DNA of 64,000 bases. Origin: Buxus sempervirens. Its lineage: Eukaryota > Streptophyta > Magnoliopsida > Buxales > Buxaceae. Shown in pieces: positions 34,440-58,909 of this stretch. The position numbers were made by a program, and so were the translations under genes. The stretch spans positions 42,768,392 to 42,832,391 of the forward strand of contig OX387190.1 in the NCBI GenBank assembly GCA_947561395.2, in the 5' to 3' direction. Below the pieces are notes generated by a model, which saw nothing but the letters and a program-made list of their open reading frames with translations, was not told the DNA's origin and searched no databases. Numbering within the stretch: the first letter of the stretch is position 1; each line of letters starts with the position of its first letter.

Positions 34440-34448
34440 TTCCAACGC

Positions 34449-34590
34449 CGGTTCGGTTCCCATAGAGGCTCTATCTACAGCCTTATCTAAAGCCTTTACA
34501 GGATCCGAACACGCGTCCTAAAAGGCTCTCTTCCTTTTACACCAAAACTAACGTACAGATGCAAACCGACGTTAATGTTAACTCGCGCGC
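34449..34590 (+). repeat. MULE left terminal inverted repeat
   Basis: Pairs with the right end at 58770-58909. The first 20 bases match at 12 positions without any gap, the next 26 are identical, and patches of identity continue (GAACACG(C/T)GTCC, CGTTAATGTTA). The perfect core is also partly self-complementary. Confidence 0.85.
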
Positions 34591-34738
34591 CAAAATCAGA
34601 TGCCGCCGTTCGCAGTTTTCAAATTTTGAATCCCTTCTTCCGAGACGAGTTTTCATTTTCATTATTGTCAAACCAATAAGACATCACTTTCGTTTTCCCC
34701 AGATCCACACTTGTTTTAAATTTTCATCTTCCCCAGAT

Positions 34739-35254
34739 GTCGTCGTTCGCGAAAATGCCACTCTCACCTTTGGCTGGAACGGGAACTTCATCCTCGCCGT
34801 CATAGATGGTCGTGTAGTTTGGCGAACAAACACGGCCGGTCAACAAGGGTGTCACCGGAATCCAGTTGCTCGCAAATGGGAACATAGTCCTCCTCCTCCA
34901 TGATAATAACGGGAGGTTTCTGTGGCAAAGCTTGGACCACCCAACTGATACTCTCCTGGCAAGCCTGTCTGTTGCTCTAAATGGTCATGACAAACTCATT
35001 AACAGACTTCCGACGTCGACGGTTCCAACGGTCCTTACAGCATTGTTTTGGAGCCTAAAGGGGGCTTCAACATGTATATTAGTAACTCAAGAAAGCTTCT
35101 CATCTATGGAGGTTGCACGGGTTTGGACCCGGTGGAGTTGATAACCTTTGATGTAGTCCCCATGGATGAACACCCCCAAGCTTACGAGTTAGTCTCAATC
35201 TCAAAAAGCACAATACATCATCATCGCCTACCTCAAGGCATCTTCTGCAAGTGA
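34739..35254 (+). pseudogene. Captured fragment of an EP1-like (bulb-type lectin) secreted glycoprotein gene
   Basis: Frame 1 gives VVRENATLTFGWNGNFILAV then DGRVVWRTNTA; after a frameshift near 34845 a second frame gives GIQLLANGNIVLLLHDNNGR then FLWQSLDHPTDTLLASLS; a third frame from about 35030 gives NGPYSIVLEPKGGFNMYISN then SRKLLIYGGC. The pattern (WNGN..L, DGR.VW.TNTA, LL.NGN.VL.D..GRF.WQS.D.PTDTLL, NGPYS) is the B-lectin domain of the carrot EP1-like secreted glycoproteins, kin of the extracellular part of S-domain receptor kinases. The true N-terminus and the PAN-like end are absent. It lies inside the Pack-MULE and is not a working gene. Confidence 0.82.
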
Positions 35255-36694
35255 GTCCTATAGGAAGTGCAAGTCAACTCAACCTTAACGAGGCAAATTA
35301 TAATGCTACCTACTCATTTCTGAGGTTGGGATTGGCCGGATTTGAATGATTGACTGGGAAGCAACATTAGTATCATTACTAGGAAGAGCTGGCCGGAATC
35401 CATGCCGGCAACCTAGAAGTTCTTCCAACCGCGATTTCTTGATTTCTCTTTCCGGTATGTCGCAAGATTCAAAAGCACGGCTAAGAAATTCTTCCAACCA
35501 TGAAAAAGTTTCAGTTTTTGAGTAATTTCCCTTTAGAGAAGCAGTGCTAAGAAAAATACAACCGACATCACCGACAGCTCTTGAAATAGGACCATTATCA
35601 TTCTTCCTTGCAAACTTAATAACCCCATAATGTTATGAATATTAAGCTTTTGTATCAACGTACACTATAGTTAGTGAAAGTGCGGTAAACCAAGCTTTGA
35701 GTTGCAACTAATGCTAAGCTCATCTGTATGCTTTCTTTGCTCTTCAACTTAAACCGATCAATATGTTGATCACTTGAAAATAGAAAGGACTTGATCATTG
35801 TTCTAAAAGTGTAATGTACATTGAACTCAATCACTAAATCCAAGGATGTTGAAAAGAAGTAAATGCTAAAAATTGTAAAGGTACGGATCAACAAATTCAA
35901 GGGTTGTATATGTAGCTCCTTTACTGGAGGTATAGATTAAAAGAATCCAAAGATACTGAGCTTATAAAACTGTCTTAAACTGATTTAGTTACCCCAAAGG
36001 AGGTAGTTTAGAGATGATTTCTGCCAAATCTCAAGAGAAGAACAAATCTTTTATTTCTAATGAACCAGTTAACGCCATGTAATTTGGCTCAATTTGGTTT
36101 GGTATAGAATATACGGATGTTATGCCGTTACATGGCCTTCTTTCTTTCTTTTTGACCTTTGTTCTGATAAAAACGCCATTGAACACTCTCTCTGCTCTCC
36201 ACTCCACAAATTTGACTTTCAGAGAAGCTTTCACGTATTTGGCAAAAAATGATACAAAGAAGGATAAATCACACAATGGCGGTTTCATTCAGCTATTCAA
36301 GCGACTGAAACACTCAGTACCAAGTGATACATATTGAACACAAAAAAATATGATGAGAAAGAAGCTCCCCTTTGTCTTTATAGTTACAATCCATATCTGT
36401 AAGAAGAGATCACCATCACTTATATCATCAACTGATGCAACCCAGATCAACCCAAGAATAAAAAAACCAGTTAAAGAAAAACAAATTACAAGAAAATCAG
36501 AATAGCAAATTAAGTCGGCATTCTCTCGACGTCTTTTGACACCCTTTTCAAGCTTCTCTACACAACCTCTTCTTTTTATTTACAGTTCCCTTCGACAACC
36601 AATACAAATTTTCCAAGAAATAGTTCCAAAAAAAACAGGGGAAAACAGAGTAAAGAATCCTTGACATTTTAGCTTCTATTTATGATTCTCTTTC
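35255..36694. other. MULE interior of unknown origin
   Basis: No family is recognised between the lectin and YUCCA pieces. An open frame at 35306-35497 (-) and AT-rich DNA at 35640-35930 have no likeness known to me. The last 300 bases before 36695 look like promoter and leader and may be the captured 5' region of the YUCCA gene, since the YUCCA ATG follows directly. Confidence 0.4.
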
Positions 36695-37306
36695 ATGGGT
36701 TCTTGCAAAGAAGATGAGACACTGCCGAAATGCGTGTGCCTGGATGGACCTATTGTCGTGGGTGCATGTCCATCGAGTTTAGCACTTGCTGCTTACCTTA
36801 AGGAGAAGGGCGTCCTTGTAGTCGTTCTTGATAAAAGCAACTGTATAGCCTCTCTATGGCAATGCAAAACCTATGACTGATTAAAACTCCATCTTCCCAA
36901 ACCGAGAGGAGTAGAAGGCCAAGAAAGCAGTGAGCCAAGGCCCAAGGAAGCAAGGGGACAAAGGGTTGGTAGCACGCTTACGGTCTCATTCCAATCATTC
37001 TGGGCAAGACAATCGAAAGCGAGGCAAAGGGTCGGCCTTCTTTCTCCTCTTAGGAAGAAGGAGCTGCTACTGTGATCATATCTGCTGTTCCGCTCAAGCA
37101 AACCTGTCCCAAGCAGTTGCTTTGAATCAGATGTAGGGATTGAATGACTTCCGATTCCAGCAGTCAGTGAAGAGCGCCGAGTTGGATTCAAGTTGTGTAT
37201 TCTAGAAGGTCAGAATCCAACATGTCGTATACACTAGCAGGTGGCTCATTGTTGCCATCGGAGATAATGCCGAGCCGGTCATTGCTGAGATTTCAGGGAG
37301 GGAGGT
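36695..37306 (+). pseudogene. Captured YUCCA flavin monooxygenase fragment (two pieces with foreign filler)
   Basis: YUCCA enzymes turn indole-3-pyruvate into auxin. Piece 1 (36695-36905) reads MGSCKEDETLPKCVCLDGPI, then VVGACPSSLALAAYLKEKGV and ASLWQCKTYD, a stop, and LKLHLPKPR. The FAD-binding GxGxxG reads GACPSS, and the stop stands where YUCCAs have Arg (YDRLKLHLPK), so CGA to TGA is likely. Piece 2 (about 37140-37306) reads QSVKSAELDSS, a stop, then HVVYTSRWLIVAIGDNAEPV and ISGREV, the later Rossmann-type ATG motif region. The 230 bases between replace the expected CELP...FN segment with sequence I cannot place. The Ogre-type element interrupts the locus right after GREV. Confidence 0.85.
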
Positions 37307-39120
37307 TGTGAGACATGGGAAAAAATCAAATCTAATGATTTCCTCTATCATCACACGGGATCATATTAAACAAAGAGTCGCCACCATTCAATCTAGGTGT
37401 GAATGGACACCAAAATATTAAATAAGCACAAAAGGCAATTTTTAGGGCAAAATATCCCTCCTAAGAAAAACAACCAGAGATGGGTAAGGGGATTAAGTTA
37501 TGAACAGGGGAAGGTGTTAGGCACCCCTATTCATCCACACAAGGTGGTTGCCAGGTATTTGTTCATGTTAAAATAAAGAAAAAAACTTGCTATAAAAATC
37601 AGGAAAAATCACAAAAAAGACAAAAATTGTATGGTTTTTTCATATGAATAGTCTGATTGATCCAGAACTTTCAAATATGATCATAACATTCCTAGGGTTT
37701 CATGATTAAAATAAAATTGAGATAAAATCAAATAAAATCAATTTAAAGTGAAAAATCCAAAAATCTGGCTTCAAGTTAAATTCTAGAAATCTGGAAAAAT
37801 ATGATTGTTATAAAATATTTCAAAATTGAACTTGAATAGTCCAGGATATAGATAAAGCCCAAATTTCACATTAAATCAGAAAATCAAAACCAAAAATACC
37901 CACATTGATGAAAAACACCAAAAGGGGAGAATTTAGACCGTAGGGTCTTCTCTCAATAATGAAAAACAATTTAAAAACCACATCATGAAACCCTAGAATT
38001 TATTTTTAGGCTTCTGGATTCAGATCTATCATATTGATCATGATAAATCCAGGATCTTAGCCTACAATCGCAAAAATCACGAAAACAGTGCTGTAGGTGC
38101 AAAAGTGGCAAAAATCCAAATTTTGGCAAAAATAGGGGATCTCATGCTATAAACATCATGGATTCATGTTATTCATTCAAATATATCATAAAAAGCATTA
38201 AAACATGATCAGGATATTTAAAACAGCCACATCTCACAGATTTAGAGCATATGGGGGTCTACCCTACGGATCCACCTATTCTCTTTTCCCCTAGTTCTCT
38301 CTTCACGTTTTACGGCTAAAGAGACTCTTGAGGTACTTAGAGATAGGTTTGGATACACAAACACAATCACAGGCCTTATTCTATGAAAAAAAGGAAAAAA
38401 ACAGATATGGGGTTCTATTCTAGGGATCCACCTGTTCCCCTTTCCCCTAGTTCTCTCTTCACGTTTTACGGCTAGAGAGACCCTTGAGGTACTTAGAGAC
38501 AAGTTTAGGAATACAAAAACAGATATGGCCTTATTCTACAGCAATAGAGATGATCCTATTACTTCTAGAATTTAAAGACAGAAAATAAAAAGGGATAGGG
38601 GACTTACCTGGATTGAGCAGGCAGGCAGCAGGGATTCCTTTCCTTCTCTTGGAGCTTCTTTGGAGTTCCTTAGACTTCAAAATTTCGTGGCCCTTAGCTA
38701 GAGGAGAGAGCCTCTATTTATAGACACACCCAGGGGCATGGTTGGTCCAGAAGGATATAGCCTGATTCTCAGGATAGAGTGAAATACAGAGATAATGCCC
38801 ATCCATAGTGGCTTCAGCGAATAAAATACTTAATTCGCTCGTTTAAAGATATATTGGACTTCAAATAAAGCTCGGAAATCGAGAGAAGGACCAAACTTGC
38901 ACGTGTCTTTAATGCCCGTAAATGATTTACGGTCCAATGGTGACCGTATTGGTATTACGGGCGCGCCTGCCCGTAGTTATTTTGCGGGCGAGATAGGCCC
39001 GTGAAGCCAATACGGGCAAAGCCTGTTCATTCTATTTTTAGACCTTTTTGACCTGTTTTAAGCTCTAATTACAGGTTTTTATTATTTTCTCATTTGGCAG
39101 TGCAATTTGGGGTGTCTACA
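37307..39120 (-). repeat. Left (3') LTR of the Ogre-type element
   Basis: 1,814 bp, TGTGAGACATGGG at the left edge and GGTGTCTACA at the right (TG..CA on either strand). Nearly identical to the other LTR. It holds a TATAAATA box (complement of 38715-38722), a copy of the palindromic module (38913-39023) and an internal duplication of about 150 bp (near 38246-38398 and 38399-38540) around a TTCACGTTTTACGGCTA core. Confidence 0.95.
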
Positions 39121-39136
39121 GCTGCCCCCTCTTTGC
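39121..39136 (-). other. Polypurine tract of the Ogre-type element
   Basis: On the - strand AAAGAGGGGGCAGC ends directly at the 3' LTR (TGTAGACACC). Position and composition fit the primer for second-strand synthesis. Confidence 0.75.
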
Positions 39137-39468
39137 TGGTAATTGGAACCAATTACAAGCAGAGAGCAAAAAGACCCGCCAATTGCACTTTCTGAGATTC
39201 TTGTATAATCAATTGCACTTTGCAAGGATTAAAGAGATGATTTTTGAAAAAAGAATTGATTGTGGAAGATTTGCTAAGAAATCCCTCAGCTTAAGGGCCA
39301 AATCTTCCTCTCTCCTCTCACTGAGCACTTGTGGGCTATGAAGTGAGATTTGAGACAAAATTTTTAAACAAAAGTGGGTAAGGTGGAAATCCTTGCAACT
39401 TGCAACTAATACAAACATTAATCTCCTAAAAATTGTGAGAAAATGACAAAATAGGTAATTTTTGGCTT

Positions 39469-39570
39469 CGCCCGCATTATGCTTACGGACAGACCTGCCC
39501 GTAGAGGATTCACGGGCGACCGGGACCGTATGGATTTCACGGGTACCTGAAGCCCGTACTGAGTTTACGG
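39469..39570. promoter_or_regulatory. GC-rich palindromic module, copy before antisense gene 1
   Basis: Same unit type as at 43981-44110 (CTTACGGACAGACCTGCCCG, CACGGGCGACCGGGACCGTA). It stands directly before the likely leader exon of antisense gene 1. Confidence 0.7.
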
Positions 39571-40932
39571 ATTTTACTCTCTTCTTAAGGCCGCGAACGC
39601 GAACTTTTCCTTCTCTGCTCGCACTTCTGCCCTAGTTTCTCTGCGCCCGTATTCTCTTCTCCGGACGTCTTTCTTCTTCTTCAACAATCCTCCGACGACC
39701 ACTGTTCTCCGGCCATTCTCTCTTCTCCGGCAGCTCAAATTTCCGGCGACTGTTCCCATTTCCTCTGGTGATTTCCAAGTTCTCCGGCGACCACTGTATT
39801 CTTCAGCAACCATCGACCGTATCTCTAGTGACTTGCTCAAATTCGTTGGATCCCTTTTTTTTTTTTTCCAAGAGCTTGGTGGAGCAAAGGTTCGGCTACT
39901 GCTTACTTGCATTTTTTTTTTCGATCATTCCTGGTAAGTGGCCGAAACTCATTCCTATTGCCAACAGTATATCGCAAGCGACCATATGATTGAACTTGCT
40001 TGACTCATGCATGAATTTTGCTTTTGCTCGAAAAAAATAATCTCTAATACACATGTTACATATATTCCAGGATCATTCATTTGTTCCCAAATTTCTGAAT
40101 TCTTCATAGCTTGACATTTGATTTGTATTCTGATAACTTCCACTTCATGTTTGATCCATGGTTGCATCTTTCAGCCTTTGAGATGATAAATGCTTAGTCT
40201 GTGATGTTTGCTAAATTATTGACTTTGGTTTATCACTTGTATGCTTGCATCAGATTTGTGATTCCTCTTTACCACTGTTAAATTGAGCTCTTTTATGACT
40301 TATGTTGCTCCAATTTTTCTGCCAATGCTCCATTGGAAGTTAGACCTTTGAATCCTCAAATTTTCACTGCCTTGTTGACCTGGAGCAATCATATTTTTAT
40401 TGGTGCTGTATTTGGCATGCTAGCAGACTTTTGTATGTTCAAGTTCCACTTATAGGTTATTGCTTGAAACTTTGCCTTGACCATGAACTGCTAGATAATT
40501 GCCCATTCCTGCTTTTTAGAAAATTGGTCTTGCTTTCATCTAATTCGATCCTTCCTCCAATTGATAACCATGATAGATTTCTGAATCTATAACTGAATAA
40601 GCCTAAACTTAAAGAGTATTGATATTATCACGATCTCAACTTAAATAGGCTTGAAATTTTAGCCTGAAACCAAACAAAAAAGAGATGATTAAAATCAACC
40701 TTTAGCACATTCATATAAGAAGCCTACACTTCATATATATAAATTTTATATATTTTCTTGATTAAAGCAAAGACTAAATAAATATCACAATAAGCCTTAT
40801 TCAAACAGAAAATTAAAATTTTTTTCTTCCGTCCTCCATTTTCTTTCCTGCAAATCAATTAATCTTGGTTAAAATTAAGCAATAAAAATTTGCACAAGAA
40901 ATAATTAACCAACTCCCTGCTTTGAACCATAG

Positions 40933-43777
40933 ATGGCCCGTCTTCGATCAGCTTCTAGGGATCCAGCAGATGAGCCTTCCTCTTCTAGGGTTAGGCGAGA
41001 TCCTGCTGATGTGGCCACTTCTTCGAGGGCTGAGAGGGATTCTGATTCTGATATCCCAGATTTCCCTTCTGGGGATTCGCGTGAGGCGACCCCAGAGGTA
41101 TACTCTAACCTTTCTGCAATTTCCTATCCTTTCCCAAAATACATCTTCCTGATTCTTCAATTATTTTCTTTTAGCCGGCTGTTGAGGCTTCTGGCAGAGA
41201 TAGAAGCCGTAGCAGACGCAGAGCTGGAGGCAGAGATGGAGGCCATGATGAGGGCCATAGGGGAGGCCGCAGAGGGGGCCGTGGCAGAGATGAGGTCAGG
41301 ACCAGGGTTGAGATCCCTGAGGAGGTGGCTGCCCAGATTAGGGACACCGATCTTCTGCATGGTTTGAGGACTCATCCCTCGGCGTGCGTTAGGGCGGATA
41401 TCCCTTTGGAGTATCCGATGTCCCACTATAGAGGGAGCTGGGCCAGCTTTACTAAATTTTTGAGAGCTTGCAGTTCGGCCTATCGTCGGGAGCTAGGATT
41501 GTACGGTTTCGGCATGTTTATCACTATCCCGGACGTACGCTTAGATCGAGCCCTCATTGCAGCATTATTGGAGAGGTTTTTCCCAGAGACCTTGAGCTTC
41601 CACTTTCCAGATATTGAGATTGGGATCCGGCCTTCTGATTTCACGCTCATCACCGGGATTAGGATGATCGGTGATGTTATTACTGAGATGGCGATGCCAG
41701 AGGCTGAGGAGATCGCTGGTTATCTTGGATACATTGTGCTGCCTCCTGAGGCATGGGATCGGGGGAGAGCTAGATTGTCTCTGACATGGTTGAGAGAGAC
41801 TTTCAGGAGGAGGCAGTTTGGCCAGCTTGCTGCCGGTGACCATGTTTTCCCATTTGCCTTCCGATTCCTCTTTCTATATATGATGGGATCCTGCTTCTTC
41901 CCAGAGGACACGACTTCAGTTAGTCCTTACTTCTTGAGTCTTCTGGGAGATCTGCAGCGGGCGAGGAGGTATGCCTGGGGCCCGCTCATATTTGGTACTA
42001 TTCTGGCTGGCCTGCGCCGATCAGTGAGCGGCCTCTCTACATCCAGAGGGGCTGGAGTTGGGTGTAGGTTCTTCTGGCCCTTCTTGCAGGTGAACCTTAT
42101 TCCTCTTCTTTCTCTTTCTTTTTATCACTTATTTTATATTCTTCTGACTATTTTCTTCTTTCTTGCAGTTTTTTGCTAGGGTTTATATACCCTATTTCCG
42201 CCCTACCTCTACGATGCCTGAGGAGACGTATCCCATGGCACTTAGATGGTGTCATGTAGAGCATGACTCTGAAAAGAGTCGTCCCAGGTCCGCCCGGGCC
42301 CACTTAGACAGGTTATACCGGTCTGAGGTAATCTTCTTTAATTTCTCTACTTTCTTCTTTTCTTTTCTTCCTGGATCGCATATCTGATGTCTTGTTCTGT
42401 TTTTCAGCTATTTGTCCCCAGGATGGAGGACATTCATGAGGTGCTAGCCCTGCAGGCAGCCAGAGATGATGCATTTGTCCCTGACCAGAGACGACAGAGA
42501 TACCAGTTCTTTATTGGTCAGTTGGGCAGCATCTGGTATTGTGGCGAGCGCTTCTTCTTTCAGCATGTGGGAGAGCCACGGATTCCTGCCATCCCGCCAG
42601 ATACTACTCCTCTCTATCCTCCTATGCCTGTTGATCCTGCCCAGTTCTTAGATTGGACTGAGGCAGAGACATTATTGGAGGAGGGTGACTATGATGCATG
42701 GTTCAGGCGATCTTCTGTTGGGTGCCTCATGTCACCCATGCCTGTCCGTGGCGGAGTTACGGAGATAGGAGGGGTAGTGATTAGGGCCTACGACACCACG
42801 GTATGCTTTCTTCTTTTGTGATCTTCTATTTCTATTTCATCTGCTTTTAGCATTTTTCTGACTTCTTTCTTCTCTATTTCAGGAGGCTCAGTTGGCAGAG
42901 ATCAGGTCTCGCTATGCTGATCTAGAGCGCCAGCATGATGCAGCAATCGCGGAGCGGGACGCCCTCTATATCACTATTTCCGATCTCCGGGGGCAGCTAG
43001 CCAGAGCCCAGGGCCAGGAGGGTCCATCTGATGCACAGGACTAGGCGGGTCCGTCTGATACTCAGGTTAATTTCTTCTTTTATTTCCATTCCTGCTTTTG
43101 TATTTGTTTGTCTTGTTCTGACTGAATTTTTCTCTTAGTTTCAGGAGTACATGGCTGGTCCCTCTTCACTTGCTTCACCCGTGCCTATGCATTTCCGGGA
43201 TGAGGTGTTTTCTGTGGCACGGGTGGAGTTCGTGACATCTCCTAGTCCAGTGGAGGTTCCTGTAGCAGAGCCTGAGGTCGAGGCTGATATCGTACCTGCT
43301 GCTGCTGATGTGCCAGAGTCTACCCCAGTAGCTGAGACGGCTCCTGCTGCATCTACTGATGTTGATATGGATTCGGCTATGGACGCCGCTGTGGTAGAGC
43401 CTACCGTGGAGACTGCGGTGATGGCGGAGGCTACAGCTGATCCTGTAGAGCCTGGGGTTGATGCTGATGTACCTGAGACCTCTGCCCCTGCTAGTCCTAC
43501 TATGGAGGATATCGAGGAGACGCATGCTGCTGTGGATACGTCCGAGGAGTCTTCCCGTACTGATTCTGATGTAGATACTTCAGGGTATGTCCCTCCTGAT
43601 CATCCCACTGCTGGCCTTGTACCTTTATATATGTGGCATGATGTTCAATCTGTTTTGAGCAGGATGCCGCGTAGCACAGCCCGCAATGTGGTGCGGCATG
43701 TCTTTGAGCGCAGGCGATCTTCAGGCAGAGGACGAAGCCGTGGCCGTAGGAGCGGACCTGCATGGCCATTAGATTAG
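40933..43777 (+). CDS. Antisense gene 1 of the Ogre-type element: plant-mobile-domain-like protein
   Basis: Runs opposite to gag-pol. Open segments separated by short T-rich intron-like gaps with GT..AG borders. It starts MARLRSASRDPADEPSSSR (Arg/Ser-rich), then a large segment with GLYGFGMFITIPDVRLDRAL, IAALLERFFPETLSFHFPD and IGIRPSDFTLITGIRMIG, which is the helical plant mobile domain pattern (PMD, as in MAIL/MAIN proteins). The end is acidic, with many Ala/Val/Glu/Pro, and then Arg-rich (RRRSSGRGRSRGRRSG). A leader exon (about 39571-39932) with a 1-kb intron is likely. Antisense extra genes of this kind are known in Tat-lineage elements; their role is unknown. Confidence 0.72.
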
Positions 43778-43980
43778 GATTCTTCCATGTACCTTTGTAT
43801 TTTTTGGCAAAAGTGATGTAAACATTCATGTATATAAAAGAAGTTTGATTTATTTCCATTTGTGTTCTTTCTTCTTTATTTATAGTATTTATTACCTCAT
43901 GAATGTTAAACAGGGACATGTGAAGCTTAGGGAAACAAAGGAAATTAAAAGTTCCCATTTTTTTGCATTTTTTCGAAGGA

Positions 43981-44110: not shown

Positions 44111-44133
44111 ATTTACTGCCTTGCGATTTTTTC

Positions 44134-44141: not shown

Positions 44142-44175
44142 CTCCTAGGGAACGTCATTGTGACACTTTTATTGA

Positions 44176-47035: not shown

Positions 47036-50000
47036 TCATGGAAAATATCTCTTTACTGCATCAGAGTTAATTGGCTCAGGAAAATCCTTTCCATCCATTT
47101 CTGTTAAGATGAGAGCACCCCCTGATAGAACTTTCTTGACCACATAAGGTCCTTCCCAATTTGGTTTAAACTTTCCACGAGGATCTTCCAAAAAGGGTAA
47201 AATCTTCTTTAATACCAAATTTCCTTCTTGGAAAGTTCTGGGCTTCACCTTTTTATTGTAAGCCCTAGCCATCCTCTTCCGATATATTTGGCCATGACTA
47301 AGTGCCTTCAAACGCTTTTCTTCAATTAAATTGAGTTGATCATGTCTAGACTGTATCCATTCAGCTTCTTCTAATTCTGCTTCCATTAGCACTCTTAGTG
47401 AAGGTATTTCCACTTCCACTGGTAAAACTGCTTCCATTCCATAGACTAAGGAGTATGGGGTCGCTCCTGTAGAAGTCCGAATTGAGGTTCTGTAAGCATG
47501 TAGAGCAAGTGGCAGCATTTCATGCCAATCTTTAAAACTCACTACCATCTTTTGAATAATCTTCTTTATATTCTTATTGGCTGCTTCCACTGCCCCATTC
47601 ATCTTTGGTCTGTAAGGCGCTGACTTGTGGTGGGTAATCTGAAATTGTTCACACATCTTCCTCATGTCTTTGTTCTTAAGGTTTGAAGCATTGTCTGTTA
47701 CTATGGCACTTGGCAAACCATAGCGGCAAATGATGTTATGCTTCAAAAACTTAAGAACATGGCTACTTGTAATGTTTGCATAAGAAGCCGCTTCTACCCA
47801 CTTGGTAAAGTAATCAATTGCTACGAGTATAAATCTATGTCCATTTGATGCCTTTGGAGAGATCATTCCAATGACATCTATACCCCACATAGAAAAAGGC
47901 CACGGAGATGTCATACTGTGTAATTCACTTGGGGGTGCATGCTTGTTATCCGCGTACACTTGGCATAAATGACACCTTTTAACGTGCATATAGCAATCAT
48001 GCTCCATAGTCGACCAGTAATATCCCAATCGCAGAATCTTCTTGGCAAGCATATGCCCATTCATATGGGGTCCACACACTCCTCCATGTACGGTTTCAAC
48101 TATCCTTTCTGACTCAGTTTTTGCAACACATCTAAGTAGTATATCATTGTGTGATCTTTTGTACAACTGCCCACCACTTAGTAAGAACTGTCCTGCCAGC
48201 CTCTGTATTGTTCTTTTCTCTGTAGAGGTGACATTTTCTGGTAAGCTCCGATCATTTAGGAAGTTCTTAATGTTTTGAAACCATGGTACTTCTTCTTCTG
48301 GGGTTTCTTCTAAAACAAGGCAGTAAGCTGGTTCGTCTCTGACTTCAATTTCCAATGGTCTAATATCAACCCCTTCTGGCATATTGACCATTGAAGCCAA
48401 TGTTGCTAGAGCATCTGCAAACTGGTTTTTGGCCCTTGGCATATAATTGAAGGAAATTCGAGTAAATTTATTGCTTATTTCTTCCAAATACTGGTGATAG
48501 GGGATCAATTTGTGATCCTTGGTTTTCCATTCACCAGTTGTTTGGAAGATGATAAGACTCGAATCTCCATATACGTCAAGTTCCTCTACTTCATGATCTA
48601 AGGCTGCTTGTAACCCAATTATGCATGCTTCATACTCTGCTATATTGTTCGTGCATTGGAACCTTAACTTCACTGCGATTGGGATATGTGCCCCATCTGG
48701 CTTGATCAGAACAGCCCCTATTCCATTTCCATTCATATTGGCGGCCCCATCAAAAAACATCTGCCATGAGCTCTCACCTTCTTCCTCTTCAGCAAACAGG
48801 ATTGCCTCATCAGGGAAGTTGGTCTTTAAGGGTTGGTATTCTGGTAAAGGGTGTGCGGCTAAGTGATCTGCAATAGCTTGACCCTTAATGGCCTTCTGTG
48901 TGATATAGGTGAGGTCAAATTCAGAGAGTAACAACTGCCACTTTGCTGTTCTGCCAGTTAAAGCTGGTTTCTCAAATAGATACTTCAAAGGGTCCATGCG
49001 GGATATCAATAAGGTGGAATGACTAAGGAAATAGTGCCTTAGTCTCTGAGTTGCCCATACTAAAGCACAACAAGTCTTTTCCAAAGGTGAATACTTTGCT
49101 TCATATTCTGTAAATTTCTTACTCAGGTAGTAAATCGCCCTCTCCTTTCTGCCTGTATCGTCATGCTGTCCTAAGACACACCCCATTGATGTCTCCAAAA
49201 CAGACAAGTATAGGATTAGTGGCCTTCCTGGAGTTGGTGGTACTAGCACAGGTGGGTTTAATAAGTATTCCTTTATTGTGTCAAAGGCTTCTTGGCACTC
49301 ATCATTCCAGACTGTCGGGTTATTCTTTCTTAAAAGTTTGAAAATTGGTTCACAGATAGCGGTGAGCTGTGCTATGAACCGGCTTATGTACTGAATCCTT
49401 CCAAGAAAGCCCCGAACCTCTCTCTCGGTTCTAGGTGATGGCATTTCAATGATGGCTTTAGCTTTAGCTGGGTCAATCTCAATTCCTCTTCTGCTTACTA
49501 TAAAACCCAATAATTTTCCTGATGTAGCCCCAAAGACACACTTAGCAGGGTTCAGCCTTAGACTGTATTTCCTAAGCCGATCAAATACCTTCTTCAAGTT
49601 GATCAAGTGGTCTTCTTCTTCGCATGATTTGGCTATCATATCATCCACATAAACCTCCATCTCCTTATGGATCATATCATGGAATAAGGCTGTCATGGCC
49701 CTCTGGTAGGTTGCCCCAGCATTCTTAAGTCCAAATGGCATGACAGTGTAGTGGAAGGTACCCCAAGGGGTGATAAAGGCTGTCTTCTCTTGGTCTTCCT
49801 TAGCCATCTTAATCTGATTATACCCAGAAAACCCATCCATGAATGAGAATAGACTATGTACAGCGGTGTTATCCACCAGGATGTCTACGTGTGGAAGTGG
49901 AAAATCATCCTTTGGACTTGCCTTATTCAAATCTCTATAATCTACGCACATTCTGACTTTCCCATCCTTCTTTGGCACTGGCACTATATTTGCAAGCCAT

Positions 50001-50662
50001 TCGGGGTATGTGGAAACTGCTAAGAATCCGGCTTGGAATTGTTTAACCACTTCATCTTTAACCTTCAATGTCCACTCAGGTTTTAACCTTCTCAGTTTCT
50101 GCTTAACTGGCTTAGAGTCTGGTAGAATGGGTAGCCTGTGCACCACCATATCTGTGTCTAACCCCGGCATATCCCGATACGACCATGCAAACACATCTTC
50201 ATAATCAGCCAAAAATCGTATCATTTCATCTCGCTGTACCTCAGATAGACATACCCCAATCTTTACTATTTTTGGGTCCTCTTCGGTCCCTAGGTTGATT
50301 GATATGGTCTCTTCAATATTGGGTTGGACCCCCTTTTCATGACGCTCTAATTGATATGTGATTTCTTTTGGAACGTCGTCTTCTTCGTCCTCGGTCTCTT
50401 CTTCAACCCCCATTAGGTCAAAGTCGAGCTCAAGGTCGAAGTCATACTCATCCTGATCCAATTCCGTTTGCTTATATGGTTCATAAATGGTTTGGACCTT
50501 TTTGAAAAATTTATCTTTTCTAGAAAAAACTGAAAACTCTTTTTGTGTTTTTTGAGAGCCTTCTACAAAATCTTTCCCTGAAGACGAAGGCTCCTTAAAA
50601 CCTTCAGGAAAAGGGCATTCCACTAATGGAGTTTTTTTTTGGAAGCCATGTCTGTTTGCCAA
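47036..50662 (-). CDS. Reverse transcriptase-RNase H-integrase frame of the Ogre-type element
   Basis: One open frame of 1,208 codons. In order: an acidic linker, reverse transcriptase with the YVDD catalytic box near residue 340, the gypsy RNase H, a second archaeal-type RNase H (MFFDGAANMNGNGIGAV near 635), and integrase with the HHCC zinc finger and DDE core (GIDVIGMISPK onwards). The second RNase H is a mark of the Tat lineage. The frame looks whole. It ends tail to tail with the antisense genes. Confidence 0.93.
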   Translation of the reverse strand: MANRHGFQKKTPLVECPFPEGFKEPSSSGKDFVEGSQKTQKEFSVFSRKDKFFKKVQTIYEPYKQTELDQDEYDFDLELDFDLMGVEEETEDEEDDVPKEITYQLERHEKGVQPNIEETISINLGTEEDPKIVKIGVCLSEVQRDEMIRFLADYEDVFAWSYRDMPGLDTDMVVHRLPILPDSKPVKQKLRRLKPEWTLKVKDEVVKQFQAGFLAVSTYPEWLANIVPVPKKDGKVRMCVDYRDLNKASPKDDFPLPHVDILVDNTAVHSLFSFMDGFSGYNQIKMAKEDQEKTAFITPWGTFHYTVMPFGLKNAGATYQRAMTALFHDMIHKEMEVYVDDMIAKSCEEEDHLINLKKVFDRLRKYSLRLNPAKCVFGATSGKLLGFIVSRRGIEIDPAKAKAIIEMPSPRTEREVRGFLGRIQYISRFIAQLTAICEPIFKLLRKNNPTVWNDECQEAFDTIKEYLLNPPVLVPPTPGRPLILYLSVLETSMGCVLGQHDDTGRKERAIYYLSKKFTEYEAKYSPLEKTCCALVWATQRLRHYFLSHSTLLISRMDPLKYLFEKPALTGRTAKWQLLLSEFDLTYITQKAIKGQAIADHLAAHPLPEYQPLKTNFPDEAILFAEEEEGESSWQMFFDGAANMNGNGIGAVLIKPDGAHIPIAVKLRFQCTNNIAEYEACIIGLQAALDHEVEELDVYGDSSLIIFQTTGEWKTKDHKLIPYHQYLEEISNKFTRISFNYMPRAKNQFADALATLASMVNMPEGVDIRPLEIEVRDEPAYCLVLEETPEEEVPWFQNIKNFLNDRSLPENVTSTEKRTIQRLAGQFLLSGGQLYKRSHNDILLRCVAKTESERIVETVHGGVCGPHMNGHMLAKKILRLGYYWSTMEHDCYMHVKRCHLCQVYADNKHAPPSELHSMTSPWPFSMWGIDVIGMISPKASNGHRFILVAIDYFTKWVEAASYANITSSHVLKFLKHNIICRYGLPSAIVTDNASNLKNKDMRKMCEQFQITHHKSAPYRPKMNGAVEAANKNIKKIIQKMVVSFKDWHEMLPLALHAYRTSIRTSTGATPYSLVYGMEAVLPVEVEIPSLRVLMEAELEEAEWIQSRHDQLNLIEEKRLKALSHGQIYRKRMARAYNKKVKPRTFQEGNLVLKKILPFLEDPRGKFKPNWEGPYVVKKVLSGGALILTEMDGKDFPEPINSDAVKRYFP

Positions 50663-53600
50663 ACAAACGCGGCTTCAAAAGTAAGGGGAGTTTCCTCCCA
50701 ATTATTCAGAATAAAAGAATCTGGGGCAGGGATACAAGCCTGCTCCTCAAGCTCAGGGTCTGCATCAGAGATCACCAGTACTGGGTGCGTTGCATCGCCT
50801 GTTTCTTCGGTAGGGCTAGTTCCAGATGGAACTTCTACTGCAGCCCAGTCAATAAAAGGTAGCTCCTCTGCTACTTTTTCTTGGTTGCCTTCTGTCATGG
50901 CAAAGAATGCCCCTACTTCCTCATAAGAGTCCTGCTCCTGTTTGGCTTGTGGCCCAGGCCCACCAGATGCTTGTGGAGGTGGAACACATGGCTGTATTGT
51001 GGAGGGTTTAGGTTTCTGGAATGGGTTGACATTGTAGTATGGGGGTTTGGCCTGATCCTCAGGAGGAGACAGCTGAATCATGTGAGACAGCTTAGGAAAA
51101 GTTTCCCTGATGTGCGGGAATTTCATAGCTTCTGTCTGCCCCTGTCTTCTCCATTTCCTTGGCTTGGACCCCAATCCTGCTCTATGAACCATCTTCTTAA
51201 CCTGAACTGGTTCTATCCTTCCTTGTAGGTTAATCCCCAGACCTTTTCCAGGGTGAAAATGGTACTTTTCTAATACATTTTTGACCATTTTTTCAGCACA
51301 GGTCAATTTTCCTTCTTTTTGTTGATACCCCCCAGGTATATAATTCACAGCTTCAAACTGAAAAGAGTGAAATGCCATCTTATCTGCTGTCATTTCCGTG
51401 TTAATACAGGGTACATCAGGGGACCACATGGGGGGAACCAAATTTTCGGCCAGGACGGTAATCACCTTTTGCCCTCTAATATACTTGACTCTTTGGTGGA
51501 GGGTAGATGGTATGGCCCTAGCTGTATGAATCCACGGCCTTCCTAGGAGTAGGTTGAAAGCCGCAGGTATATCCATCACTTCAAATGTGATGTTGAAAAT
51601 ATACGGTCCAATTGTGACCGGCAGTTCAACCTCCCCTAGGGAGTGTGTCTTAGAGCTGTCAAATGCTCTTATAATTCTTCCATTTTGTTTTATTTTGTTT
51701 CGCTCCAGATTGAGCTTAACAAAGGTTACTAAAGGGCAGACATTGAGGGCTGACCCATTATCAATCAAGACCCGGGCTATCATGCAGCCCTTACTGAGCA
51801 CAGCAATGTGCAATGGATCCACATGATGGTATCCTGCTGGACTAATTTCAGTTTCAGAAAAGGTTATGACATTATGGGATAATATTTGACCAACCATCCG
51901 GCCTAGTTGGTCTGGTTCAATGTTTTTAGGCACATGGGCCCCCTGAAGTATCCTTAACAAGGAGTCCCTATGTTTTTCTGAATTTAACAATAATCCCAGA
52001 ATTGAGATCTGGGCAGGGACCTTGTTCAACTGCTCAATGACATTGAACTCACTCTTTTTTATTACCTTAATGAGGTCAGCAGCCTCACTGTTAGTTACCT
52101 GAGGGGCCTCTTCCCCTACTTTGGCCTTGCCTTTATTTCTTTCTTCTTCTTTATCCTTCTCTGTTTCTTTCTGTTTTTCTTCCACCCCTACACACTTTCT
52201 TGACCTCATCATGAGATTTACTTCTTCCTTGCTTTCAACTGCAGGGCATGTAGTGGTAAATGCCTCACTGTAGTTCCATGGTACAGCCGATTCAGAGTAG
52301 GAAGGCTTGGGGACATTCACCACCAATGGGGGAAGTTTGGGCTTGGCGATGGAAGTCTGAGTAATAGGAACATTAACAACCAATGGAGGTAGTTGTTTTG
52401 GTTGAGGGGTTGCAAAAGGGACTGATGCACAATTTATGACCAATGGTGGCTTAGACTGAATGGGTGGAGTGAAAGTGGATGGATTATAATTAATGACCAA
52501 AGGTGGCTTGGCGATGTTCATTTGGGCCATGAGGGATGAGACCCGGTCCAAAGATGAGCTAATGTTCTTTGCAGCACTATCATTCCCCTTTGAAATCATG
52601 TTTATTTCTTTGCCTTCACTTCTCCTGTCAAAATATACTTTGACCGTTGTCCCTATGGGAGCAATTAATTGAGATGGGTCAAAGGTTATTTTGTCAGAAG
52701 AGATGACTCCTATGACATTAGATGGGCCTGCCCCGTGATGTTGGGGCAGTGGGTTTTGTCCAATATCTGTTCTTGGAGGATTGGAAGCCCCTGTATTGAA
52801 AGACAGGGTATTCTGGTCTAGTAAATCCTGAATGGCATGTTTCAAAGGCCAGCACTTGTCTGTAGGGTGCCCAGGTGCACCCATATGGTAATCACAAGTG
52901 GTGGAGGGGTCAAAATTTCTCCCCTTAGATGCATTCGGATTAGGTTCTCTTAAGGTGATATACCCTCCTTGCAATAAAGTGGGCAGCAATTGAGAGGGAG
53001 TCATTGGAATAGGGGTGAAAACCCTATTTCTCCTTGCTGCAAAATAGGCGTCCTTTTCCTCCTTGGTAAAAACCCTTTTTTGGTCTGAAGATGCTGCTGG
53101 AACATTAACCCTCATAGGGGCCTGGGTAGGTGGAGATGGAGTAGGAAAATGAGCAGGTACGTTGATTTGTATGGGCTTGTTAGGGCCGGATGGTGGCTGT
53201 ACCATGTTTACCTCACCCTCCTTCTTGTTCCCATTCTTTTTTGTCCCGCTTCCTTTCTTTAGGTTGGGGTCCTGCTGGCTAACCATGGCAGAGTGGTCAA
53301 TTATCTTACCTGACCTTATTCCATCCTCAATTCGGTCAGCCACCTGAACCAAAGCTGCAAAATTAGTGGTGGTCTGACCCACCAAGTGACTGTAGAATGG
53401 TTGACCCAAAGTGCTTATGAAAGTAGAAATCATTTCCTGTTCTAGCATGGGTGGCCTGACCTGAGAAGCTGTCTCCCTCCACCTCTTGGCATATTGCCTT
53501 ACAGTCTCTTCCCTTCCTTTGCTCATTCTCATGACGTCGTACCTATCTGGCATGATCTCTGAATTGAACCGGTATTGAGCCAGGAAGGCATCGGCTAGGT

Positions 53601-54363
53601 CCTTCCATCTTTTGATCTTTCCATGGTCCAGAGTGGCGAACCATCTTAATGCGGTTCCAGTCAGGCTCCTTTGGAAAAGTTGGATTAGAACACCTTCATC
53701 CTGCCCAAACTGGCATAGGGCACCACAGTATAACTTTAGATGGCTCATGGGGCAACCAGTGCCATCATACTTGTCCAAGTCTGGGCACTTAAACTTAGCC
53801 GGCAGGTTAACATTGGGGTATAGGCACAGGTCTTCAAAATTGGTGCCTCCAAAGTTGTTTACCCCTTTGACTGCCCTAAGTTCATCTTGGATCAATTCTA
53901 GCTTATGCATGAACTTTCTTTCAACCTCTTCCCTTATCCTTTCCTTTTCCTTAGCCTTGTTTGATTCAGCTGTCTCATCTCTGGTCAGTATAGGTTCAGG
54001 GGTGGGTTCATAGACGGGTTCAGGAGTTGGTTGCACTGGAGGTGGAACATTGACTTGGGGTGGAGGTGCAGGGTTGGATGCGGATGCCTGGTTCTGGGCC
54101 TGCATTTGTTGGGCCTGCACTTGTTGGGCCTGTACTGACAGTATGTTTTCTAGCATTCGGGCTAGTCCTGCCACTTGTTCTTGGAGTAGAACGACATCTG
54201 GATGAGGAGCATCAACTTCATCTTCAATGGGGTTCATGGCTCGAGCTCTTGATCTGGTTACAGGAGCTATGATTGCAAGTGTGTTAGTACCTGGCGAGAA
54301 ATAAAGATAAAATATCAGTGCCAATTTAATCTCCTTCACATGCCTAAGAATGCCTATGTGCAA
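50623..54363 (-). CDS. Gag-protease frame of the Ogre-type element
   Basis: One open frame of 1,246 codons. In order: a short basic start, a Gln/Pro-rich part, the retrotransposon gag domain (about residues 180-350), a zinc-knuckle-like CDYHMGAPGHPTDKC region near 490, a long Pro-rich linker, the aspartic protease with DNGSALNV near 870, and a G-patch-like stretch (HPGKGLGINL) near 1,060. The real start may be a later Met. It overlaps the next frame by about 40 bases in another phase; Ogre-type elements are known to join these parts by splicing. The frame looks whole. Confidence 0.92.
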   Translation of the reverse strand: MHIGILRHVKEIKLALIFYLYFSPGTNTLAIIAPVTRSRARAMNPIEDEVDAPHPDVVLLQEQVAGLARMLENILSVQAQQVQAQQMQAQNQASASNPAPPPQVNVPPPVQPTPEPVYEPTPEPILTRDETAESNKAKEKERIREEVERKFMHKLELIQDELRAVKGVNNFGGTNFEDLCLYPNVNLPAKFKCPDLDKYDGTGCPMSHLKLYCGALCQFGQDEGVLIQLFQRSLTGTALRWFATLDHGKIKRWKDLADAFLAQYRFNSEIMPDRYDVMRMSKGREETVRQYAKRWRETASQVRPPMLEQEMISTFISTLGQPFYSHLVGQTTTNFAALVQVADRIEDGIRSGKIIDHSAMVSQQDPNLKKGSGTKKNGNKKEGEVNMVQPPSGPNKPIQINVPAHFPTPSPPTQAPMRVNVPAASSDQKRVFTKEEKDAYFAARRNRVFTPIPMTPSQLLPTLLQGGYITLREPNPNASKGRNFDPSTTCDYHMGAPGHPTDKCWPLKHAIQDLLDQNTLSFNTGASNPPRTDIGQNPLPQHHGAGPSNVIGVISSDKITFDPSQLIAPIGTTVKVYFDRRSEGKEINMISKGNDSAAKNISSSLDRVSSLMAQMNIAKPPLVINYNPSTFTPPIQSKPPLVINCASVPFATPQPKQLPPLVVNVPITQTSIAKPKLPPLVVNVPKPSYSESAVPWNYSEAFTTTCPAVESKEEVNLMMRSRKCVGVEEKQKETEKDKEEERNKGKAKVGEEAPQVTNSEAADLIKVIKKSEFNVIEQLNKVPAQISILGLLLNSEKHRDSLLRILQGAHVPKNIEPDQLGRMVGQILSHNVITFSETEISPAGYHHVDPLHIAVLSKGCMIARVLIDNGSALNVCPLVTFVKLNLERNKIKQNGRIIRAFDSSKTHSLGEVELPVTIGPYIFNITFEVMDIPAAFNLLLGRPWIHTARAIPSTLHQRVKYIRGQKVITVLAENLVPPMWSPDVPCINTEMTADKMAFHSFQFEAVNYIPGGYQQKEGKLTCAEKMVKNVLEKYHFHPGKGLGINLQGRIEPVQVKKMVHRAGLGSKPRKWRRQGQTEAMKFPHIRETFPKLSHMIQLSPPEDQAKPPYYNVNPFQKPKPSTIQPCVPPPQASGGPGPQAKQEQDSYEEVGAFFAMTEGNQEKVAEELPFIDWAAVEVPSGTSPTEETGDATHPVLVISDADPELEEQACIPAPDSFILNNWEETPLTFEAAFVWQTDMASKKKLH

Positions 54364-54510
54364 GCTGGGTGAACACGAGTTTGGATATTTTTTTTATTTG
54401 CTTCTTTTTTTTTTTTTTTTTTTTATTTTTTATTTATTTATTTATTTATTTTGAATTGAATTGTTGGAATATTCTAGGGCTTCCAACAGGTCCCACAAAA
54501 GAGAGAAAGG

Positions 54511-54596
54511 TCTGAAATTCAAAGGCTTTCAGAGGTCCGGGGGGTTTTTTTTTTTTTTTTTGAAAAAGGTCTGAAATTCAAAGGCTTTCAGAGGCC

Positions 54597-54631
<35 letters not shown>

Positions 54632-55260
54632 TCTGAAATTCAAAGGCTTTCAGAGGCCCAAAAGTTCTGAAATTCAAAGGCTTTCAGAGGCCCAGAAGGA
54701 AAAGGTCTGAAATTCAAAGGCTTTCAGAGGCCCAAAAGTTCTGAAATTCAAAGGCTTTCAGAGGCCCAAAAGAAAAAGGACTGAAATTCAAAGGCTTTCA
54801 GAGGCCCAAAAGTTCTGAAATTCAAAGGCTTTCAGAGGCCCAAAAGGAAAAGGTCTGAAATTCAAAGGCTTTCAGAGGCCCAAAAGTTCTGAAATTCAAA
54901 GGCTTTCAGAGGCCTAAAAGAAAAAGGTCTGAAATTCAAAGGCTTTCAGAGGCCCAAAAGAAAAAGGTCTGAAATTCAAAGGCTTTCAGAGGCCCAAAAG
55001 TTCTGAAATTCAAAGGCTTTCAGAGGCCCAGGGATTTTTGAGAAAAAGTCTGAAATTCAAAGGCTTTCAGAGGCCCAGGGATTTTTTTGAGAAAAAGTCT
55101 GAAATTCAAAGGCTTTCAGAGGCCCAGGTATTTTTGAGAAAAAGTCTGAAATTCAAAGGCTTTCAGAGGCCCAGGGATTTTTGAGAAAAAGTCTGAAATT
55201 CAAAGGCTTTCAGAGGCCCAAGAGTTTTGAAAAAGTCTGAAATTCAAAGGCTTTCAGAAG
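54511..55260. repeat. Tandem array in the Ogre leader, about 18 copies
   Basis: The core TCTGAAATTCAAAGGCTTTC followed by AGAGGCCCA is repeated about 18 times with spacers of 6-25 bases, T-rich in the first copies and AAAAG or GATTTTTGAGAAAAAG in later ones. Each core holds the stem CTGAAA..TTTCAG. It lies between the primer site and gag on the 5' side. Tandem arrays in untranslated parts are known in Ogre elements and can seed satellites. Confidence 0.92.
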
Positions 55261-55419
55261 CCTTTCTCTCACATTTTTTTCTTTTAAATATTTTTTTTTT
55301 GTTTTCTTTTTTTTTTTTTTTTGAAGCATTTTATTCAAACTTGTTTCCCTTTATCATTATTTAAAGGTTAAAAGAATATTTTAGTGGGAAAAACTGATTA
55401 AAGTTGAATATTCCGAGAA

Positions 55420-55560
55420 AACCGTATATACAGTACGGTCCAGCCTTGCCCGTATTTAAATTACGAGCCTGCCGTGACCGTAGGCAGTCCACGGGGGAGC
55501 CTAGCCCGTATAAACAATACGGGCAAGCCCAGCCCGTGTATTAAATGCGGTTTTACGGAA
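55420..55560. promoter_or_regulatory. GC-rich palindromic module, copy in the gag-pol leader
   Basis: Units such as AATACGGGCAAGCCCAGCCC and GTACGGTCCAGCCTTGCCCG, of the same type as the other four copies. It lies between the primer-binding site and the tandem array. Confidence 0.7.
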
Positions 55561-56796
55561 CCCTGTTATATTTTTCCAGTTTTTATATGGTTTGATCACT
55601 TTCATTGTTCATCCAAACGTACGGTTCACCCAGTACAGAGCTTCTAAACTGTCCCAAAGTGGACTTTGGCCTATTTGTAAAACACATGCTAGGGAGGGCA
55701 CATGTACCCTCCAAATTGACATCATACTCAAGAATTTGATATCCTTTTGTTGCCTCTTGTGTGTACATAGGGTAGGATTGATTTTAAACAGAGTTAGAAA
55801 CTCTTCCTATGGGCTGCACCACTTTTTAACAAATATGCATATTTTGGGACCAATTTTATCCCAAACCCATGGGTACCATGACACCCCTATGACATGAAAA
55901 TAATGCAAAACAATGGGATTACCTTGTTACCTTGTTTACCTTGAATATAGCATCCGCATTATGCCCTGGTTTGTAAGCCATGCATACGGCCTTCCCACAA
56001 TCATACAAACCCCATATTCCCACGTAATTGTGTAATTTAGCCAAAAACGTGTAACTCCACCTTCAAGCGTAGGGGTTTTGGGTTTTGGCTTAATGGCAAC
56101 TTAGCACTCAAGCCTAGTGATGACCAGAATCCCAGATCCACATTATCATCACATCATTAGCTCAAAGTTCTACGGTGAATGTTTTCACTTTCGCTTTCCG
56201 AAGTATCGACCTCGGTGCGCCAAGCTACACACATTCTTGTTCAACTTCCTATAGGTGATAGGTAGGCCGTGTAAAAAAAATAAAAGGTGCACAGTGCATT
56301 GTAAACATAGGTCACATTCACAACGTCCCAAACCCTTGCCACTCTTTTCGCAGCCATGCATAAACAAACCAAGGCATAATAGGAAAGCATATTTTAAATA
56401 AACAAGTAAATAAAGCAATCCTATAGCACCCAAAACATGCTCATAAAAAATCATCCAAATCATGTCAACATATGCTCATATTATATATCCAAAATACACC
56501 ATAGAAAGCATGCTGAAAATTAGAATATGCATATTAAAATACAGCAAGAAATAAGCATGGTTTATCAAAATAAACCTCCCCTATGCATGTTTCTAGAAAC
56601 AATCCTATGAATCAGAATTAAGCATGTTTCTACCCCCATGAATTCCTAAGCAATAATTCAGATTTAAAACATACTCAACATGCTTAAGAACACCAAACAG
56701 CAAGCAAAACAAAGACATGCTAAAAACACAAAATAGCAAGCAAATCAAAAAAGATCAAAAACATGAACAAACACCGAAAAGGCTCAAATCCACAGG

Positions 56797-56814
56797 TCCC
56801 CAGCAGAGTCGCCA
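56797..56814 (-). other. Primer-binding site of the Ogre-type element
   Basis: Two bases inside the 5' LTR, the - strand reads TGGCGACTCTGCTGGGGA, complementary to a tRNA 3' end (..CGCCA). Ogre elements are known to use a tRNA-Arg primer; the match here was not checked against a tRNA set. Confidence 0.8.
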
Positions 56815-56816
56815 GT

Positions 56817-58630
56817 TGTGAGACATGGGAAAAAATCAAATCTAATGATTTCCTCTATCATCACACGGGATCATATTAAACAAAGAGTCGCCACCATTCA
56901 ATCTAGGTGTGAATGGACACCAAAATATTAAATAAGCACAAAAGGCAATTTTTAGGGCAAAATATCCCTCCTAAGAAAAACAACCAGAGATGGGTAAGGG
57001 GATTAAGTTATGAACAGGGGAAGGTGTTAGGCACCCCTATTCATCCACACAAGGTGGTTGCCAGGTATTTGTTCATGTTAAAATAAAGAAAAAAACTTGC
57101 TATAAAAATCAGGAAAAATCACAAAAAAGACAAAAATTGTATGGTTTTTTCATATGAATAGTCTGATTGATCCAGAACTTTCAAATATGATCATACCATT
57201 CCTAGGGTTTCATGATTAAAATAAAATTGAGATAAAATCAAATAAAATCAATTTAAAGTGAAAAATCCAAAAATCTGGCTTCAAGTTAAATTCTAGAAAT
57301 CTGGAAAAATATGATTGTTATAAAATATTTCAAAATTGAACTTGAATAGTCCGGGATATAGATAAAGCCCAAATTTCACATTAAATCAGAAAATCAAAAC
57401 CAAAAATACCCACATTGATGAAAAACACCAAAAGGGGAGAATTTAGACCGTAGGGTCTTCTCTCAATAATGAAAAACAATTTAAAAACCACATCATGAAA
57501 CCCTAGAATTTATTTTTAGGCTTCTGGATTCAGATCTATCATATTGATCATGATAAATCCAGGATCTTAGCCTACAATCGCAAAAATCACGAAAACAGTG
57601 CTGTAGGTGCAAAAGTGGCAAAAATCCAAATTTTGGCAAAAATAGGGGATCTCATGCTATAAACATCATGGATTCATGTTATTCATTCAAATATATCATA
57701 AAAAGCATTAAAACATGATCAGGATATTTAAAACAGCCACATCTCACAGATTTAGAGCATATGGGGGTCTACCCTACGGATCCACCTATTCTCTTTTCCC
57801 CTAGTTCTCTCTTCACGTTTTACGGCTAAAGAGACTCTTGAGGTACTTAGAGATAGGTTTGGATACACAAACACAATCACAGGCCTTATTCTATGAAAAA
57901 AAGGAAAAAAACAGATATGGGGTTCTATTCTAGGGATCCACCTGTTCCCCTTTCCCCTAGTTCTCTCTTCACGTTTTACGGCTAGAGAGACCCTTGAGGT
58001 ACTTAGAGACAAGTTTAGGAATACAAAAACAGATATGGCCTTATTCTACAGCAATAGAGATGATCCTATTACTTCTAGAATTTAAAGACAGAAAATAAAA
58101 AGGGATAGGGGACTTACCTGGATTGAGCAGGCAGGCAGCAGGGATTCCTTTCCTTCTCTTGGAGCTTCTTTGGAGTTCCTTAGACTTCAAAATTTCGTGG
58201 CCCTTAGCTAGAGGAGAGAGCCTCTATTTATAGACACACCCAGGGGCATGGTTGGTCCAGAAGGATATAGCCTGATTCTCAGGATAGAGTGAAATACAGA
58301 GATAATGCCCATCCATAGTGGCTTCAGCGAATAAAATACTTAATTCGCTCGTTTAAAGATATATTGGACTTCAAATAAAGCTCGGAAATCGAGAGAAGGA
58401 CCAAACTTGCACGTGTCTTTAATGCCCGTAAATGATTTACGGTCCAATGGTGACCGTATTGGTATTACGGGCGCGCCTGCCCGTAGATATTTTGCGGGCG
58501 AGATAGGCCCGTGAAGCCAATACGGGCAAAGCCTGTTCATTCTATTTTTAGACCTTTTTGACCTGTTTTAAGCTCTAATTACAGGTTTTTATTATTTTCT
58601 CATTTGGCAGTGCAATTTGGGGTGTCTACA
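56817..58630 (-). repeat. Right (5') LTR of the Ogre-type element
   Basis: 1,814 bp, the same length as the left LTR and different from it at only about three places by eye. The likely promoter is TATAAATA (complement of 58225-58232), about 400 bp from the outer edge, with the palindromic module (58423-58533) roughly 200 bp upstream of it. Confidence 0.95.
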
Positions 58631-58769
58631 GAGGTCATCGCTCGACCATGAATCTCTCAATTCCTGATATCTCAAGAATGATCGAACGTTGCCACTTTTG
58701 TTTATCAAGAATCACTTTCAGAATTTTTGGAGGGAAATTTTCCCCCTCAGTTGAAATTTTCATGTGTAA

Positions 58770-58909
58770 CATTAACGTTAACGTGGAATTCATTTTGGGT
58801 TTCCGTTGGTTGGTTTGAAAACAAAGAGAAGAGCTCACGGGACACGTGTTCCCTTCCTGTAGAGGCTTTAGATAAGGCTGTAGATAGAGCCTCTACAGGA
58901 TCTCAATTG
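58770..58909 (-). repeat. MULE right terminal inverted repeat
   Basis: Inverted partner of 34449-34590; the perfect 32-bp core is 58864-58895 and lies 14 bases from the end, just as on the left. The 9-bp target copy follows at 58910-58918. Confidence 0.85.

Follow-up and report, generated by a model that had tools for sequence, protein, structure and literature searches.

A Mutator-like element carrying a mosaic of host DNA, and split by a retrotransposon, in Buxus sempervirens

The DNA analysed here is a stretch of 64,000 nucleotides of Buxus sempervirens (assembly GCA_947561395.2, contig OX387190.1, positions 42,768,392-42,832,391, forward strand), called the window below. It was compared with the 676.5 Mb host assembly, in which the contigs are named C1, C3, C4 and so on; the window is on C12. 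The subject is what lies at 34449-58909. This is, almost certainly, a non-autonomous Mutator-like element (MULE) of the sort known as a Pack-MULE, with composite terminal inverted repeats and a cargo of host DNA. Only 3,132 bp are the element's own, which agrees with the 3.1 kb or so estimated in a preliminary description made from the letters of the window. The remainder is a retrotransposon of 21,324 bp. Inside the element, host DNA from no fewer than three unlinked loci forms a mosaic, which in finished form is found at three loci in the genome, two of which have separate 9-bp duplications and identical element boundaries.

The exact 9-mer TTCCAACGC stands on both sides of the element, at 34440-34448 and at 58910-58918, just as had been claimed. 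Symmetric exact 9-mers within 14 bases to either side turned up for 66 out of 200,000 random point pairs. The left terminal inverted repeat occupies 34449-34582 (plus strand), with a further inverted repeat inside its core. On the other side, 58636-58909 (plus strand) holds subterminal DNA and the right terminal inverted repeat. Aligned in inverted orientation, the two ends agree at 7 of the outermost 14 bases and then at 33 consecutive bases, and over the whole alignable part 96 of 126 columns are identical. The preliminary description, which had suggested this alignment, was correct about symmetric ends with a perfect core 14 bases in; the core is 33 rather than 32 bases long. It also folds back on itself, with a z of -4.73 (right end) or -2.47 (left end). 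Inward from the left end, 34567-34663 partly resembles DNA on C9 and C6. A comparison of the window with itself (E 1e-3) yielded no further copies of the ends, and Rfam at its gathering scores has no matches in the window.

The first piece of cargo is a coding fragment of an EP1-like (bulb-lectin) gene at 34746-35332, on the plus strand and with broken frames. The lectin assignment is confirmed by a match to Pfam B_lectin (frame 34818-35138, E 2.8e-10). The best match in the genome is C8:8088817-8089399, with 48 substitutions in 577 aligned bases (8.3%). The frame at that locus is itself interrupted. A paralogue at C8:8078359 is open over 468 amino acids, scores above the cut-offs for B_lectin and PAN_2, and is 10.7% different.

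The next 1.15 kb or so, which separates the lectin fragment from a YUCCA fragment further on, matches other loci. Both flanks of this middle stretch come from C21:4071904-4072488, a non-coding piece between an acid-phosphatase frame and a DUF1005 frame. Its first part, from beside the acid-phosphatase frame, is at 35363-35540 (plus, 78%). The second part, from the DUF1005 side, is at 36103-36519 (plus, 86%), and there are stretches similar to it on C3 and C6. Between the two, the C21 piece is interrupted by 550 bp of C1-like DNA: 35554-36103 is, on the minus strand, 80% like C1:18262352-18262912. This non-coding cargo is low in GC, 0.355 versus 0.475 in the EP1 piece. A reverse frame at 35309-35632 was considered as a third coding fragment and rejected, as most of it falls within the matches to C21 and C1; a search of solved structures with this frame gave two weak hits.

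The YUCCA piece has the same orientation as the lectin fragment, as the preliminary description had it. It starts with 176 bp from before the ATG (36519-36694, plus), captured together with the coding part from C11, so that the proposed 5' region of its own is indeed there. The first exon follows in two parts on the plus strand, 36695-36902 and 37155-37304. Between these, at 36903-37154 (plus), 252 bp of filler replace 116 bp of the donor. The best match in the genome is C11:39635386-39636059, at 84% and 89% in two parts, the 89% belonging to the second part of the exon. For the first part, the window sequence and C11 have different bases at 38 of 381 positions; against a C21 paralogue the count is 100 of 364. 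The exon at the C11 locus matches FMO-like with an E of 2.4e-21. On its own, the piece in the window gives weak Rossmann hits in Pfam, the best with an E of 0.00036 and 21.2 bits against a cut-off of 21.9. A search of solved structures put chance hits to repeat proteins on top and weak hits to flavin enzymes lower down. The identification as YUCCA therefore holds by way of C11, except that 252 bp within the piece are not YUCCA. As for the filler, a genome query spanning it matched, besides the element's own copies, just one stretch: 36995-37126 (132 bp) is 80% like C3:11111482-11111629. A mitochondrial origin for the filler is a conjecture based on its appearance, to which a literature search contributed nothing.

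A search for donors, as the preliminary description had proposed, thus places the EP1-like donor on C8 and the YUCCA donor on C11. Its count of two donor genes has to be given up: there are at least three well-supported donor loci (C8, C21 and C11), plus two weaker ones (C1 and C3).

The element is also found elsewhere. C4:305047-308215 and C4:316797-319965 are two units of 3,169 bp, which begin and end at exactly the same bases as the element in the window and lack the retrotransposon. Their exact 9-bp duplication, at zero offset, is CCCCATCTC, which is unlike TTCCAACGC. Because of these identical boundaries and this separate duplication, the element must have moved as a unit. The two C4 units are identical to each other and lie inside repeats spaced 11,750 bp apart; since these repeats are 100% alike for 9.5 kb and 99.8% for another 1.5 kb, the two units are treated as a single insertion. 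The tandem repeats at C4:300000-324500, some 300 kb from the end of the contig, are either very recent or an assembly artefact. Compared with C4, the window copy has 28 substitutions in about 3,131 bases (0.9%) and three gapped bases at two places, and only C4 has an extra tandem unit of 34 bp from the end core.

The third locus, C3:4601849-4618679, is an older, truncated copy in minus orientation, matching 35282-37305 and 58631-58900 of the window. It is cut by two inserts with short direct repeats, and the outer bases of its right end are unlike those in the window. Around this copy there are stretches 67-81% like the long terminal repeat (LTR) of the window's retrotransposon, one match of 31 bp reaching 90%.

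Six internal joins of the mosaic were tested. All six are present in C4 and all six in C3 (one of them over 76 of 81 bases). By the time the three loci diverged, then, the mosaic had already been completed. That movement came after capture is seen from the mosaic at C12, C4 and C3 together with the independent duplications at C12 and C4.

The retrotransposon that splits the window copy lies at 37307-58630 on the minus strand, as an insert of the size the preliminary description had indicated. It is flanked by its own duplication, GAGGT, at 37302-37306 and 58631-58635. GAGGT is single at the matching place in the C4 copy, which is therefore the empty site. The LTRs, 37307-39120 and 56817-58630, have 3 differences in 1,814 bases (0.17%), and the insertion is young. 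On the minus strand there is a gag frame with a G-patch domain toward its end, and a pol frame with reverse transcriptase, RNase H and integrase. Downstream of pol, frames on the plus strand carry PMD and DUF7745 domains. With LTRs, a 5-bp duplication, reverse transcriptase and integrase, this is an LTR retrotransposon. From the order of its domains we take it to be of the Ty3/gypsy type. A tandem array lies inside it at about 54506-55262. PMD and G-patch are among the commonest extra domains in a survey of plant Gypsy-type elements (PMC9289625), so in this respect the retrotransposon is ordinary.

If rates are similar, divergence would give an order of events. The matches to the donors would be oldest, with 8.3% for EP1, 10-11% for the two parts of YUCCA, and 78-86% identity for the non-coding C21 and C1 pieces. 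The C3 copy would come next, at 5.9% (134 of 2,289), then the C4 copy, and the LTRs would be youngest.

Could the element be a functional chimeric gene, or a selected regulator of auxin synthesis? The YUCCA upstream region that was brought along speaks for this. The state of the coding pieces argues the other way. Compared with the C8 genes, the EP1-like piece has changes of +4, +6 and -1 bp that are common to the window and C4; the window copy alone has another -1, at 35002. The YUCCA frame has an in-frame TGA at 36878-36880 and the filler, in the window, C4 and C3 copies alike. The window copy is furthermore split by 21 kb. Where the EP1-like and YUCCA pieces differ from their donors, all three codon positions are affected, the third somewhat more than the others; constraint acting on the donors could by itself produce such an excess. 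A functional gene or regulator is therefore very improbable. Both coding pieces being broken, the element most likely makes no protein. It would be possible for transcription to start at its ends, or for small RNAs to be directed at EP1-like or YUCCA genes.

Another thought is that the EP1-like and YUCCA pieces were once neighbours, and were captured together as one stretch with the intergenic DNA. They do point in the same direction, and are at a similar distance from their best matches (8.3% and about 10%). Yet these best matches are on different contigs: C8 for EP1, C21 and C1 for what lies between, and C11 for YUCCA. Upstream of YUCCA, the match to C11 ends at 36519. Joint capture of neighbours is thus very improbable.

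The ends belong to a family. Searching the genome for other elements with such ends, as the preliminary description had suggested, produced 29 matches to the left end, two of them being the ends of the window copy itself. Most of the 29 were viewed with 1.5 kb on each side, a range within which more distant partner ends do not fall. A recount of paired ends, 100-9,000 bp apart, in the loci retrieved gave 14 pairings at seven distinct places outside the window, with the C4 tandem pair counted once. These places are the element described here on C4 (two tandem loci), an element on C11, C3:40.84 Mb, C4:41.68 Mb (180 bp, seen in three loci), C21:8.59 Mb, C8:35.47 Mb and C21:6.73 Mb. The last is 194 bp long, has the duplication GGTTTGGAG, and is about 1.5 kb from the YUCCA paralogue on C21. 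At zero offset, 9 of 9 flanking bases agree at three of the places and 8 of 9 at the other four. Four other pairings, whose register is shifted or lies further in, agree at 2-3 of 9. For random pairs at a fixed offset, 9 of 9 was reached in 11 out of 500,000 cases, and at least 8 of 9 in 128 out of 500,000. The worry that the ends might be unrelated dispersed repeats was thus addressed: dispersed they are, but as paired ends of a MULE family. That two unrelated MULE ends and a chance 9-mer merely frame old pseudogenes, with no single element in between, can be dismissed: the ends are diverged (96/126) and dispersed, but the C4 copies, units of 3,169 bp with the same ends and cargo and a different 9-bp duplication, refute it.

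The Pack-MULE reading is supported by two different exact 9-bp duplications (window and C4), terminal inverted repeats common to a MULE family, pieces of host genes with donors elsewhere in the genome, and the movement after capture. A Helitron is ruled out, since a target duplication and terminal inverted repeats are both present. No transposase was matched in Pfam among the 10 frames scanned from 34449-37305, a scan that excluded the 274 bp to the right of the insert. The longest stop-to-stop frame touching 34449-37305 has 145 amino acids (82 frames have at least 24).

A transposase could have come from elsewhere. The C11 element of the family is 6,421 bp long, with related ends and a perfect 9-bp duplication, CTTTAGGAA. 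Its open frame of 841 amino acids matches MULE (6.5e-29) and FAR1 (1.6e-20) and has a SWIM domain, which makes it a plausible source. Relatives of this frame were sought by scoring 54 of 1,354 first-look candidates. This gave 56 matches, of which 15 rows have no stop inside the match; a relative on C14 has 78% protein identity.

Some observations weigh against the Pack-MULE reading, or against parts of it. The outer 14 bases of the two ends are only half alike. The C11 ends match those of the element at just 71-74%, so the C11 element may not be the actual source of transposase. Its three next-best relatives, on C14, C6 and C21, lack these ends within 1.5 kb to the left and right, and when C14 was viewed more widely neither such ends nor a clear framing inverted repeat came to light. 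No source is assigned to 34664-34745, 35333-35362 and most of 58636-58725. For C1 and for C3 the identity is just 80%. Finally, the C3 copy is truncated and has lost its left part.

The unequal ends are probably not mere decay. One end of the 194-bp C21 member has exactly the same outermost 14 bases as the right end of the window copy, an indication that members with unequal outer motifs exist in this MULE family. The other end of that member resembles the left end of the window copy. The C11 element, unlike the one in the window, has equal outer motifs. The hairpin is not intact in all members: of 15 listed ends, 7 lie above the 95th percentile obtained from 300 random 75-mers, and the left end of the window copy is not one of these seven.

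How such a mosaic arises can be sketched. A transposase of the FAR1/MULE type, similar to the one in the C11 element, would act in trans to move the Pack-MULE. Gaps inside it would be repaired by copying other chromosomal sites, with template switches, and this may have made the mosaic. Template switching would leave patches in patches, such as the C1-like DNA inside the C21 piece and the filler inside the YUCCA piece; this nesting, and the replacement of a donor stretch by filler, are consistent with such repair. Gap filling and fork switching are among the models discussed in PMC8277862. The ends may have a part in this. They are foldback-like: many members have a palindromic core and some have outer motifs that are asymmetric, and the core unit is capable of tandem duplication. 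It is conceivable, if rather unlikely, that hairpins promote broken or stalled repair inside the element and so make this family prone to mosaics with many donors and patches within patches. Should that be true, successive template switches between several chromosomes could be read off from the element.

Three other features of the window lie outside the element. A near-palindrome of 300 bp (79% in self-alignment) at 60098-60397, 1.2 kb to its right, is possibly a miniature inverted-repeat transposable element (MITE). An AT-rich palindromic stretch at 23791-24227 has tandem units of about 41-53 bp. The frame 27026-27706 carries zf-RVT and RNase H-like domains and is presumably a fragment of a non-LTR retrotransposon.

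Pack-MULEs are not new. Like those of rice and other plants, the element has MULE ends, 9-bp duplications and captured gene pieces, and it multiplied after capture without a transposase of its own. It is unlike them in having at least three unlinked donors and two nested patches within 3.1 kb, joins common to three loci, and non-coding cargo of low GC. The extra tandem 34-bp core unit of the C4 copies is reminiscent of MULEs with multiple terminal inverted repeats (PMC3310237); here it is a unit of 34 bp at one end and not a whole extra repeat. The Tm1 Mutator/foldback elements of root-knot nematodes (PMC3169594) likewise have composite ends, asymmetric outermost motifs, 9-bp duplications, and both MITE-like and transposase-bearing members in one family. 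The family described here differs from Tm1 in being from a plant, in its candidate transposase of the FAR1 type, and in a core that is one hairpin as opposed to many 14-bp repeats. A literature search without most subscription journals found no paper pairing a Pack-MULE with YUCCA.

The element is a clear example of a kind already known, richer in donors than first stated and ordinary in kind. For the plant the outcome is probably nil. Its use lies in presenting one ordered chain, from located donors to an assembled mosaic, its spread to other loci, and interruption by a retrotransposon. It also means that an element split by a 21 kb insert can still be recovered via its ends and copies. The internal joins, being intact at all three loci, offer material for studying the way in which MULEs take up host DNA.

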